Source: Dechloromonas sp. | GTDB lineage: Bacteria > Pseudomonadota > Gammaproteobacteria > Burkholderiales > Rhodocyclaceae | Direction: 5' to 3' | Assembly (NCBI GenBank): GCA_008933675.1 | Contig: WBUO01000021.1 | Span: 1-33,381 of the forward strand | DNA: 33,381 nt | Made by a program: the position numbers and the translations under genes | Notes under the pieces: generated by a model | Databases searched by the model: none | The model's input: only the letters and a program-made list of their open reading frames with translations | Told to the model about the DNA's origin: nothing | Shown here: positions 7,178 through 21,304 of the stretch, piece after piece | Numbering within the stretch: position 1 is the first letter of the stretch | Layout of the letters: each line of letters opens with the position of its first letter

Positions 7178-7205
7178 ATTGTAGCAGGTTAAGGGGATTG
7201 GTCAA
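7178..7205 (-). promoter_or_regulatory. Promoter of tRNA-Ser, overlapping the end of the upstream gene
   Basis: On the minus strand TTGACC (7205-7200) and TACAAT (7183-7178) are spaced 16 bases apart, about a dozen bases before the tRNA 5' end. The -35 hexamer contains the TGA stop of the gene at 7202-7468. No terminator is visible between that gene and the tRNA. Confidence 0.7.
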
Positions 7206-7468
7206 ACAAAAGTTCTGGCCAGCGCAAGGCCGATCCAGAGGACGAAGAGAAGCAGAAACAGGATCATGCTTGCCAACCATCCGGGCGCATTTTTCGGCAG
7301 CAGGATGGCGACGGCACGCCTGGGAAAATGTGTCACCAAGGCAAACAGGCGGTAGATCGGATTGCCGTCACGTCGCCGACCGGCCAACAGATAGAGCGTC
7401 GCCTGAGCCAACAGGCAAAGCCCCAGCATCTCGATGATGGCACGCAGGGCGGCGATGGCGAAAAGCAT
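7202..7468 (-). CDS. Small membrane protein at the end of the acetate-transport operon
   Basis: The 88-residue product has two hydrophobic segments (about 4-28 and 64-86) joined by a basic loop with RRRDGNPIYRLFALVTHFPRR. This suggests two membrane helices with a positively charged cytoplasmic loop. I cannot assign a family. The ATG at 7468 is six bases past the stop of the DUF4212 gene and lacks a good ribosome site, so translation is probably coupled. Its position directly after the two symporter genes suggests an accessory transporter subunit or assembly factor. It ends inside the tRNA-Ser promoter. Confidence 0.7.
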   Translation of the reverse strand: MLFAIAALRAIIEMLGLCLLAQATLYLLAGRRRDGNPIYRLFALVTHFPRRAVAILLPKNAPGWLASMILFLLLFVLWIGLALARTFV

Positions 7469-7474
7469 TGGTGG

Positions 7475-7738
7475 CTAGTGTTGCTCTTCGTCTTCGATGC
7501 CGTACGCTTCGTCAAGGCTACGCATGCGCCGGTTATAGAACCAGATGATCAGCAGATAGATGACCAGGGTTCCCTGGGCGCCCATGTAGAAACCGAACGG
7601 AAAACCGAAAATCGCCAGCTCGTTGAGTTCGCGGGCGAACCAGTTGAGAACGAAGGTGACCAGCACCCAGACCAGGAAGAGTCCGGCAGTCAGGTTACGC
7701 GTCTGACGCCAGTAGGTGGCGCGATCGGATTTGCTCAT
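7475..7738 (-). CDS. DUF4212 protein, small subunit of a sodium/solute symporter
   Basis: The 87-residue protein has two membrane helices (about 17-37 and 50-70) with the family pattern YWRQTRNLTAGLFLVWVLVTF and FGFPFGFYMGAQGTLVIYLLIIWFY. Members of this family occur almost always next to a large solute/sodium symporter, in the same relation as YjcH to ActP in E. coli. The ATG at 7738 overlaps the symporter TGA by ATGA, so the two are translationally coupled. It probably forms part of the transporter. The C-terminus is short and acidic. Confidence 0.9.
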   Translation of the reverse strand: MSKSDRATYWRQTRNLTAGLFLVWVLVTFVLNWFARELNELAIFGFPFGFYMGAQGTLVIYLLIIWFYNRRMRSLDEAYGIEDEEQH

Positions 7739-19184: not shown

Positions 19185-19204
19185 GCGCACCGCTCCCTGA
19201 TCTG

Positions 19205-19330
19205 TGCCGGGAACCTTGTTCCCGCCCGGCATTCTGTTACCCGGATACCGGCCTGGCCGACATCCGGGATTCCGGCTTAGCCCTTCAGCTGTTCCAGGAT
19301 CGCCGGGTTTTGCCTTGCGGCGAAACCCGG
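19205..19330 (-). repeat. Three consecutive inverted repeats in the acs 3' region
   Basis: Moving away from acs: CCGGGTTT/AAACCCGG arms at 19303-19310 and 19323-19330, whose interior can form GCC-GCAA-GGC; CCCGGAT/ATCCGGG at 19240-19268 with an inner CGGCC/GGCCG; and TGCCGGG/CCCGGCA at 19205-19231 with a competing GGGAAC/GTTCCC. None has a U-tract. They may protect the acs mRNA 3' end, stop read-through, or be a small palindromic repeat family. The rest of the 19143-19339 gap holds no gene that I see. Confidence 0.55.
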
Positions 19331-19374
19331 TGCGACCCTTTAGCCCTTGAGCTGCTCCAGGATCGCCGGGTTTT
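19277..19374 (-). repeat. Direct duplication of the acs 3' end (35 bp, in-frame offset 63 bp)
   Basis: Bases 19340-19374, the last codons and stop of acs, recur at 19277-19311 with two mismatches in 35. The offset of 63 bases is exactly 21 codons. The second copy therefore again reads [10 protein letters not shown] and stop in the acs frame, 20 sense codons after the true stop. Confidence 0.9.
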
Positions 19375-21304
19375 CCAGCGTCGAGGTGTCCTGCGTCAGC
19401 TCCTCGCCCTTGGCCAGGCCGCGCAACAGACGACGCATGATCTTGCCGGAACGGGTCTTCGGCAGGTTGTCGCCGAAGCGGATGTCCTTCGGCTTGGCGA
19501 TCGGACCGATCTCCTTGCCCACCCAGTCCTGCAGTTCCTTGACCATCTTCTTGGTGGCTTCCGGATCGCTCGGGCGCTGACCCTTGAGCACGACGAAGGC
19601 AACGATGGCTTCACCGGTCAGGTCGTCCGGACGGCCAACCACGGCAGCCTCGGCAACCAGCGGGTTGGCGACCAGCGCCGATTCGATTTCCATGGTGCCC
19701 ATACGGTGACCGGAAACGTTCAGCACATCGTCGATACGGCCGGTGATGGTGAAGTAGCCGGTGTCCTTGTCGCGGATCGCGCCGTCGCCAGCCAGGTAGT
19801 ACTTGCCCTGGAAGTCCTGCGGGTAGTACGACTTGACGAAGCGCTCGTCGTCGTTCCAGATCGTGCGGATCATCGACGGCCACGGCTTCTTGCAGACCAG
19901 GATACCGCCTTGGCCCCACGGCAGGTCGGCACCGGTCTCATCGACCACGGCGAACTGGATGCCCGGGAACGGCAGGGTGCAGGAACCCGGCACCAGCGGG
20001 GTGGCGCCCGGCAGCGGAGTGATCATGTGGCCACCGGTTTCGGTCTGCCAGAAGGTGTCGACGATCGGGCAGCGGCCGCCGCCGACGTTGGCGTGGTACC
20101 ACTCCCAGGCAGCCGGGTTGATCGGCTCGCCGACCGAACCGAGGATGCGTAGCGAAGACAGGTTGTAGCTCTTCGGATGCACGGCGGCATTGGTGTCGGA
20201 AGCCTTGATCAGCGAGCGGATCGCGGTCGGGGCGGTGTAGAAGATGGTGGCCTTGTGATCCTGGATCATCTTCCAGAAACGGCCGGCATCCGGGTAGGTC
20301 GGGACGCCTTCGAAAACGATTTCGGTCGCGCCGCAGGCCAGCGGGCCGTAGGCGATGTAGGTATGACCGGTCACCCAGCCGATGTCGGCGGTACACCAGA
20401 AGACATCGGAATCCTTGATGTCGAAGGTCCACTTCATGGTCAGGATGGCATGCAGCAGGTAGCCGCCGGTGGAGTGCTGGACGCCCTTCGGCTTGCCGGT
20501 CGAACCCGAGGTGTAGAGCAGGAACAGCGGGTGTTCGGCGCCGACCCACTCCGGCTCGCAGGTTTCCGGCTGGCCGGCCAGACCATCATGCAGCCACTCG
20601 TCGCGGCCGGCAACCATGGTGACGTCCATGCCGGTACGCTTGAAGACAATGACGCCCTTCAGGGAATCGCAGCCACCCAGCGAAATGGCTTCGTCGGCGA
20701 TGGACTTGAGCGGCAGCGCCTTGCCGCCACGGAACTGGCCATCGGAGGTGATCAGCAGCACGGCACCAGCGTCGTTGATGCGGTCGCGCAAGGCCTGGGC
20801 GGAGAAGCCGCCGAAAACGATGGAGTGGGTCGCGCCGATACGGGCACAGGCCTGCATGGCGACAACACCTTCGATGGTCATCGGCATGTAGATGACGACG
20901 CGGTCGCCCTTCTTGACGCCCTTGGCACGCAGCAGGTTGGCCATCTTGCAGGTGCGGACCAGCAGTTCCTTGTAGGTGACCTTGGTCACTTCGCCGTTAT
21001 CGGCTTCAAAGATGATGGCGACCTTGTCGCCCTTGCCGGCTTCGACCTGACGATCGAGGCAGTTGTAGGAAACGTTGAGCTTGCCGTCGGCAAACCACTT
21101 GAAAAACGGAGCGTTGGACTCATCCAGCACCTGGGAAAACGGTTCCTTCCAGGTGATCAGTTCGCGGGCACGCTTGGCCCAGAACCCCTCGTAGTCGGCT
21201 TCAGCTTCCGCGCACAGCGCCTTGTAGGCGTCCATCCCGGAAACCGCAGCATTCTTGACGATTTCGTCAGACGGATAATAAAACTGCACGGACTCATTCG
21301 ACAT
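19340..21304 (-). CDS. acs: Acetyl-coenzyme A synthetase
   Basis: Acs converts acetate, ATP and CoA to acetyl-CoA through acetyl-AMP, the high-affinity route of acetate use. The 654-residue length is typical. Core motifs of the ANL superfamily are present: the P-loop [21 protein letters not shown] region, [46 protein letters not shown], and the C-terminal [14 protein letters not shown]. In that last motif Lys621 is the catalytic lysine that is inhibited by acetylation in Salmonella Acs. ATG 21304 has GAGGAGAAG upstream and is preferred to an in-frame start at 21331. The gene stands just before the sensor/transporter operon on the same strand. Its tail is duplicated after the stop codon. Confidence 0.98.

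Follow-up and report, generated by a model that had tools for sequence, protein, structure and literature searches.

The DNA analysed here, called the window below, is the 33,381-nucleotide (nt) stretch at positions 1 to 33,381 of contig WBUO01000021.1 (Dechloromonas sp., assembly GCA_008933675.1). An acetate locus lies on its minus strand, where acs, the acetate–CoA ligase gene, is followed by a unit of ten open reading frames (ORFs); an earlier note on this DNA had counted eleven, a number reached only when acs is included. The unit encodes a sensor kinase, a receiver, a sodium/solute symporter and the proteins that are the subject of this study: two DUF294 nucleotidyltransferase (NT) proteins and two proteins of the DEDDh (DnaQ-fold) exonuclease type. 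The DUF294 and DEDDh proteins are termed writers and erasers after the roles proposed for them below. All features of the locus are given by window position and lie on the minus strand.

The kinase gene (16132–18843) encodes a CrbS/CbrA-like SLC5-histidine kinase. Its residues 8–464 matched PDB 10ed_A (expectation value, E, 6e-77), Pfam SSF gave no score on this SLC5 part, and the fusion of the SLC5 module to HisKA and HATPase_c domains, with a HELRTPL His box, is the CrbS-type layout. The adjoining gene (15743–16114) encodes a CheY-like stand-alone receiver of 123 amino acids (Response_reg at residues 5–117) with neither an output nor a DNA-binding domain. The symporter consists of a VC_2705-family large subunit (7735–9774; TIGR03648, 763 bits, cut-off 321) and a DUF4212 small subunit (7475–7738; PF13937; TIGR03647, 93 bits, cut-off 26).

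Between receiver and symporter, the gene named here exoK (13510–15678) encodes a transmembrane segment, a PAS domain, a histidine kinase-like part and a DEDDh exonuclease (RNase_T at residues 534–690). The predicted model (pLDDT 80) contained PAS, DHp and CA-like domains in the PAS-DHp-CA layout, and its Foldseek matches included WalK/VicK-type kinases and the PolC, DinG and epsilon exonucleases. The catalytic set of the exonuclease is complete (DxE, D and HxxxxD, all five DEDDh residues). The kinase part is a pseudokinase, because the phospho-accepting His, the N box and the G1 box are missing; neither HisKA nor HATPase was found in exoK by Pfam at E up to 1. Of 86 exoK homologues, a single one has His in the phospho-acceptor column, where 82 have another residue and 3 a gap; at the position of the G1-box Asp, 78 have Trp and one has Pro, the remaining 7 being gapped.

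The short writer (12447–13505) has DUF294 and DUF294_C domains only, and the long writer (10453–12426) has a cyclic nucleotide-binding (CNB, or cNMP) domain, two CBS domains, DUF294 and DUF294_C; the cNMP domain scored 27.4 bits, against a cut-off of 27.5. Both retain GS-x-DxD and the third Asp of the polymerase-beta NT site, and in both the NT domain is followed by the helical domain PF10335 (DUF294_C). The second eraser (9785–10456) is catalytically dead, with D-A-V-R-N at the five catalytic positions; it had no Pfam family and a weak NCBIfam match to PRK07740 (exonuclease). The gene content that the earlier note had read from the sequence, with a sensor and symporter, two DUF294 NT-like proteins, an intact DEDDh exonuclease joined to a dead kinase and a dead DnaQ-fold protein, was thus recovered in full.

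Pairing of DUF294 with a DEDDh exonuclease goes far beyond chance. DUF294_C was over cut-off in 75 of 150 genomes sampled from the order and in 122 of 299 from the phylum, counts that include a few weak matches of GlnD. The order sample comprised 93 DUF294_C matches of at least 40 bits, of which two are in the window, 87 are covered by 80 loci of up to 20 kb each (some on short contigs) and four weaker ones were omitted. Pairing was scored when an exonuclease ORF lay less than 300 nt from DUF294 on the same strand. By this measure an exonuclease abuts DUF294 in 67 of the 80 order loci, and just one exonuclease ORF was found elsewhere in them; a sodium/solute symporter (SSS) was present in 52, acs in 16 and an SLC5-kinase in 8. 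Twenty further Pseudomonadota loci, hand-picked across different families, gave 17 abutting pairs, one exonuclease 416 nt off, one divergent pseudokinase-exonuclease and one locus with none, with a symporter in 13. In Bacillota, the phylum of a Clostridiales metagenome-assembled genome (MAG), DUF294_C was over cut-off in 32 of 149 genomes; 15 of 20 loci had an abutting exonuclease (L290 and L291 appear almost identical) and one more had an exonuclease within the cluster, all 16 being DEDHD. Across the 150 genomes, DUF294_C (at least 40 bits) and a VC_2705 symporter over cut-off were both present in 47, DUF294_C only in 26, the symporter only in 14 and neither in 63 (Fisher p 6e-9, with relatedness not corrected). 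The co-occurrence across genomes that the earlier note had proposed to survey is thus supported, although 28 of the 80 loci have no SSS in the stretch examined. The window's own genome carries a second DUF294-exonuclease pair (L050, contig C239), with a DEEHD exonuclease and a separate CBS-type ORF upstream.

The signalling part of the layout also recurs. A search with exoK found 490 loci, and among the best 80 a pseudokinase-exonuclease was present in 77. Within the stretch examined, these 77 loci held DUF294 in 52, an abutting receiver in 51, a symporter in 49, an SLC5-kinase in 37 and acs in 19; among the 42 pseudokinase-exonuclease loci with full flanks, DUF294 was present in 29. In two loci with no DUF294 beside the pseudokinase-exonuclease (L162, L163), the genome has DUF294 at another place. 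Paracoccus denitrificans PD1222 has a locus with the order acs, DUF4212, SSS, DUF294, receiver, exonuclease. Receivers adjoining exoK homologues were receiver-only in 59 of 60, the window counted, and 57 retained the phospho-Asp. The nearest exoK relatives among the 80 loci (Azonexaceae/Rhodocyclaceae) were those of a Rhodocyclaceae MAG (87%), a Dechloromonas aromatica MAG (81%) and Azonexus hydrophilus (77%).

Catalytic sites were compared in alignments from which duplicates and short rows (under 130 or 200 residues) had been removed. The DUF294 site was intact in 142 of 145 rows, two being truncated and one altered (L111), i.e. in 142 of 143 complete rows, and in 41 of 43 further rows, the exceptions being L208 and one fragment. 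The long writer was modelled with pLDDT 89, and its best Foldseek matches included GlnE (3k7d, E 8.6e-9; 1v4a, 2.8e-8) and DrrA-Rab8a (6yx5, 1.2e-7; TM-score 0.68 by target length). Among the 50 best matches listed, these were the only nucleotidyltransferases, both GlnE halves together with DrrA and its protein substrate; the remaining best matches were CBS and CNB proteins. In the predicted model, then, the writer is structurally like the protein AMP-transferases GlnE and DrrA. Over the NT and helical region, sequence-profile alignment with hhalign was weak: E was 7e-5 (probability 63%) against the GlnE alignment and 8e-4 (24%) against the GlnD alignment. When single sequences were compared instead, GlnD (0.0012) and the N-terminal half of GlnE (0.0015) scored better than the RNA enzymes PcnB (0.15) and Cca (0.4), negative controls taken as single E. 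coli K-12 sequences, and the C-terminal half of GlnE (0.24) did not. DUF294_C has been classed with the C-terminal domains of GlnD and GlnE in the KNTase_C clan, according to the part of PMC3710099 used here.

The trees bear on how the locus arose. On the DUF294 tree, the short writers lacking ligand domains form one clade of seven Rhodocyclales rows (support 99), and the long writers of the five loci with both exonuclease kinds form a separate clade (99) nested among solo-exonuclease loci; on the exonuclease tree, the five dead exonucleases are one clade (100) within the solo group. These clades indicate that the locus is a merger of a receiver-linked pair (exoK and writer) with a ligand-regulated pair (writer and solo exonuclease). 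After the merger, by the same reading of the sequences, one writer lost its sensor domains, one eraser lost catalysis and the receiver-linked eraser stayed live. More widely, partners changed repeatedly. The DUF294 rows next to an eraser of one kind, 64 fused and 57 solo, needed 12 changes by parsimony, at least 9 of them forced by well-supported branches, and shuffles gave about 40; forced changes numbered 11 when fused-eraser rows were set against all other rows. These counts vary with the distances allowed (6 kb for a fused eraser, 600 nt for a solo one) and with contig ends, and come from a quick tree with 42 open forks, in which 19 rows had neither eraser and 5 had both. The pseudokinase-exonucleases changed 2 times on the exonuclease tree (at least 1 forced), i.e. 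with nearly a single origin. Since partners changed repeatedly on the DUF294 tree, the solo and fused erasers look like interchangeable partners.

Of 150 exonuclease rows, 143 were DEDHD, 2 DEEHD and 5 dead; 19 further exonucleases comprised 7 DEDHD, 11 DEEHD (a conservative Asp to Glu change) and 1 DEEHN. The last adjoins the altered writer of L208 (G345, GSVND), so that both partners have lost catalytic residues there. From 40 genomes matching the dead protein, a sample of 20 neighbourhoods of the window's family was chosen, mostly as the better matches; its solo erasers were dead in 4, had Asn at two Asp positions in 7 and Val in 1, and were intact in 8. A full-length pseudokinase-exonuclease was found in all 12 genomes with an altered solo eraser and in 3 of 8 with an intact one (Fisher p 0.0036, which overstates the evidence because the losses are few and clustered). 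All dead solo exonucleases (the window, L081, L115, L116, L160 and four more) have a live pseudokinase-exonuclease in the same operon, and in the 8 genomes with a NEN- or DEV-type solo exonuclease it is located elsewhere in the genome.

The dead exonuclease is free of stops in five lineages, and its nonsynonymous rate (dN) is below the synonymous rate (dS) in all ten pairs, with dS near saturation. That it is a pseudogene was rejected on these grounds, though constraint may be relaxed, and the suggestion in the earlier note of a scaffold-type part agrees with its being kept as a non-catalytic component. Between the window and L081, dN/dS values were 0.28/1.13 for the dead exonuclease, 0.30/1.02 for the short writer and 0.079/0.76 for exoK. 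As a separate observation, the solo exonucleases of L262, L266 and L268–L272 are NENHD or NENQD beside intact writers, with no symporter or acs in the stretch and a pseudokinase-exonuclease in all seven genomes.

Reversible nucleotidylation with an eraser gated by a two-component system is considered the best explanation of these results, if still a tentative one. The core would be a portable two-enzyme switch of DUF294 and DEDDh proteins. The DUF294 protein, with a GlnE/GlnD-like NT domain, a HEPN-like C-terminal domain and usually cyclic-nucleotide and CBS domains, would transfer a nucleoside monophosphate (NMP) to a hydroxyl of a partner, and the DEDDh phosphodiesterase would take it off as 5'-NMP. 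In established chemistry the two reactions mirror each other, the phosphodiester of a 5'-NMP that NTases form being of the kind from which DEDDh enzymes free 5'-NMP. In the acetate locus the SLC5-kinase may sense acetate or acetate flux and phosphorylate the stand-alone receiver, which would dock on the dimer domain of the exoK pseudokinase and set the exonuclease activity. The candidate docking site is the DHp-like domain, which has no phosphate chemistry of its own. The window would then hold two merged pairs: in one, CNB and CBS domains regulate the writer and the old eraser has become a dead scaffold; in the other, a writer stripped of such domains stands next to the receiver-gated eraser. 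A protein that serves acetate uptake or activation is the most likely target in this locus. Transfer to a protein, removal by the exonuclease, receiver docking, the acetate signal and the target are all inferred. The wider proposal, that DUF294 writers and DEDDh erasers form a new class of reversible protein nucleotidylation across several phyla, with the eraser of proteobacterial acetate loci fused to a pseudo histidine kinase and switched by a CheY-like receiver that a transporter-shaped kinase controls, is more doubtful; its eraser would, to our knowledge, be the first DEDDh enzyme to act on protein. The earlier note had itself proposed that DUF294 attaches a nucleotide and the exonuclease removes it, and this has gained from the pairing, the intact sites and the AMP-transferase-like structure, while the chemistry remains a prediction.

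Several results weigh against this explanation. DUF294 has no abutting exonuclease in 13 of the 80 order loci, 19 of 145 tree rows have neither eraser type within the thresholds, and the pair often stands in loci with neither symporter nor acs. No hhalign probability exceeded a modest 24% for GlnD or 63% for GlnE, and the GlnE C-terminal half alone was insignificant (E 0.24). That the DEEHD exonucleases, 11 of the 19 further ones with Glu for the third Asp, are active is an assumption. The association of altered solo erasers with a second eraser probably rests on about three losses, the five dead exonucleases of the tree having one origin, and in L111 the writer is damaged beside an intact eraser. 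Relaxed constraint on the dead exonuclease and the short writer is possible, as both evolve faster than exoK. Deletion of pflu5625, a DUF294 gene of P. fluorescens, left growth on acetate normal in the part of PMC5715377 drawn on here.

As a side observation, a nine-row DUF294 clade (L055, L056, L057, L060, L061, L064, L071, L088, L096) has no exonuclease nearby, and in L056 and L060 DUF294 adjoins an ordinary kinase-regulator pair and a symporter.

Other explanations were weighed against the same evidence. NTase and trimming pairs are known in RNA biology, nucleic-acid exonuclease chemistry is the default of the family, and the matches of the exoK DEDDh domain include RNase T, ExoX and Pol III epsilon. 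The pair could be a metabolically controlled switch of RNA 3' ends, with the NTase adding nucleotides to tRNA or mRNA that the DEDDh enzyme cuts back, as in CCA or poly(A) addition versus RNase T. This is unlikely: the listed NTase structural matches of the writer are protein AMP-transferases, PcnB and Cca do not align as single sequences whereas GlnD and the GlnE N-terminal half do, and the presence of cNMP/CBS, pseudokinase and receiver parts points to signalling aimed at one particular target. Catalysis might instead be vestigial or unrelated, with the DUF294 and DnaQ-fold proteins forming a sensor or scaffold bound to transporters. The retention of a dead exonuclease with dN below dS in five lineages and the NEN-type exonucleases in 7 of 20 family neighbourhoods speak for such a complex, but the writer site is conserved in nearly all rows, and every genome of the family sample of 20 that has an altered solo exonuclease also has a second, live eraser; a non-enzymatic role is thus rather improbable.

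Slightly less probable again is a second messenger, a linear or unusual oligonucleotide made by DUF294 and destroyed by the DEDDh enzyme as by oligoribonuclease. Polymerase-beta-fold enzymes make signals in other systems, DEDDh oligoribonucleases break down dinucleotides, and the pair moves among unrelated metabolic loci; however, the CNB/CBS domains are located in the writer itself and no conserved third gene appeared as a receptor. When the genes lying up to 6 kb from DUF294 in the 80 loci were clustered, no further conserved partner gene was found, and non-member clusters reached at most 9 loci; there were seven of these, and a scan of a single protein from each of six gave a TPR protein, DUF485, cpn60 and three with no Pfam family. 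It is very improbable that these acetate genes are expressed together but do unrelated work, the exonuclease in DNA repair and DUF294 as an independent sensor. Co-expression with acetate genes is documented for PA3232–PA3235 (PMC9765439) and Pflu5625 (PMC5715377) in the sections used, but the pair stays together outside acetate loci and outside Pseudomonadota, and writer and eraser have been re-paired repeatedly.

Reversible nucleotidylation, the preferred explanation, has precedents among known systems. GlnE and GlnD share with DUF294 proteins a polymerase-beta NT domain followed by a helical domain (KNTase_C/HEPN clan) and regulation by ligand domains, and they reversibly nucleotidylate glutamine synthetase and PII, an activity that for DUF294 is only proposed. 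In GlnD and GlnE, removal is carried out by an HD domain or a second NT domain, and ACT domains are present. The Pfam scan of both window DUF294 proteins found no HD, second NT or ACT domain; cNMP and CBS domains take the place of ACT, and removal is proposed to lie with a separate DEDDh exonuclease, fused in one branch to a pseudokinase. The likeness to DrrA/SidM is limited to the fold of the NT-helical unit, as that protein is a secreted effector lacking cNMP and CBS domains, and we know of no exonuclease partner for it. The SLC5-kinase near acs and symporter genes resembles CrbS/CrbR (MxtR/ErdR). A CrbR-type regulator consists of a receiver and a DNA-binding domain, whereas the window has a bare receiver and then a pseudokinase-exonuclease, so the proposed output is at the protein level and not transcription.

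Another close known arrangement is PA3232–PA3235 of P. aeruginosa (DUF485, ActP, a cyclic nucleotide-binding/CBS protein and a 3'-5' exonuclease), which also places a writer-eraser pair beside an acetate symporter but has a single pair and a solo exonuclease with no pseudokinase. An annotated copy of a cluster of this type with the pair was seen on a plasmid record and probably corresponds, by gene numbers, to the chromosomal PA3232–PA3235. These chromosomal genes were up about 16-fold on propionate (PMC9765439). Pflu5625, whose described domains make it a DUF294-type protein, is a member of the P. fluorescens CrbS/R regulon and was already predicted to nucleotidylate a protein (PMC5715377, same part as above). 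The literature search, which did not extend to subscription papers, found nothing on DUF294, acetate and symporter together, no assigned biochemistry for DUF294 proteins, and no description of the paired cycle, of an eraser role for the exonuclease, of the receiver link or of the pseudokinase-exonuclease. Nucleotidylation as a DUF294 function is thus already predicted in print, and a paired, receiver-gated eraser was not described in the papers searched.

The neighbourhoods of the pair bear on its target. Acetate-type symporters are its commonest company in Proteobacteria. In Bacillota, where 17 neighbour proteins were scanned, aconitase (PF00330, NF005558) lies directly upstream of the pair in 5 of 20 loci (L281, L290–L293; L291 called by identity with the L290 copy). 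On a plasmid of Hymenobacter sp. DG25B (L216) the pair is part of a GH43 cluster for arabinan use that also has a LacI regulator, on a Cytobacillus plasmid it adjoins oppositely oriented proline genes, and on two Vibrio plasmids it stands by kdgR/kduD, in one of them with alginate lyase too. A table footnote in PMC3412718 places amtB in a DUF294-dnaQ neighbourhood in several Bacillales, and in that table glnK is absent from 6 of the 8 marked rows and also from many unmarked ones. As pairs also stand by aconitase, arabinan and alginate genes and amtB, the symporter is not the general target. As a universal target it was rejected, given the many pairs with no symporter and others by aconitase, arabinan, proline and alginate genes; within this locus it could still be the target. 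The naming of symporter, Acs or receiver as general targets in the earlier note is accordingly weakened by the 28 of 80 DUF294 loci lacking SSS and by the other metabolic neighbourhoods.

The analysis turns a vague DUF294 annotation into a testable two-enzyme cycle, of which the pairing and the signalling layout are established by comparison and the chemistry is a good hypothesis. If correct, transport or acetate activation would be subject to a nucleotidylation cycle under two-component control, the pseudokinase-receiver relay could link two-component signalling to nucleotidylation, receiver-only regulators in acetate loci would gain a role, and acetate uptake could be tuned faster than via transcription.

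The remaining features concern the layout of the locus. The acs gene (19340–21304; ATG start, open frame from 21331; TIGR02188, 966 bits, cut-off 725) is separated from the next ORF by 301 nt, which contain a terminator-like perfect 13-bp GC-rich hairpin with a T-rich tail (19089–19060). The ten-ORF unit begins with a 64-amino-acid membrane-like ORF (18844–19038; no Pfam family over cut-off) and ends with an 88-amino-acid membrane-like ORF (7202–7468; no family found), after which comes a strong terminator-like hairpin (7079–7033). The scan gave 13 terminator-like sites against 11.2 in shuffles, and just these two long stems stand out. The nine junctions below acs measure 0, 17, 64, 4, 20, −4, 10, −4 and 6 nt in order when internal ATGs are taken as the starts of four genes (acs, the long writer, the symporter small subunit and the 64-amino-acid ORF). 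The earlier description of overlaps or gaps mostly under 25 bases fits eight of the nine, the receiver-to-exonuclease gap being 64 nt. A single transcript including acs was unsupported, and co-transcription is unproven since the hairpin and 301 nt separate acs from the ten ORFs. The last 35 nt of acs (19340–19374) are repeated just past its stop codon (19277–19311, 94% identical), a remnant of a small tandem duplication. Elsewhere in the window, on the plus strand, a class D beta-lactamase gene (30985–31767) matched an OXA-198-like model best, though below the cut-off of that model, and scored 266 bits with the general class D model (cut-off 250).

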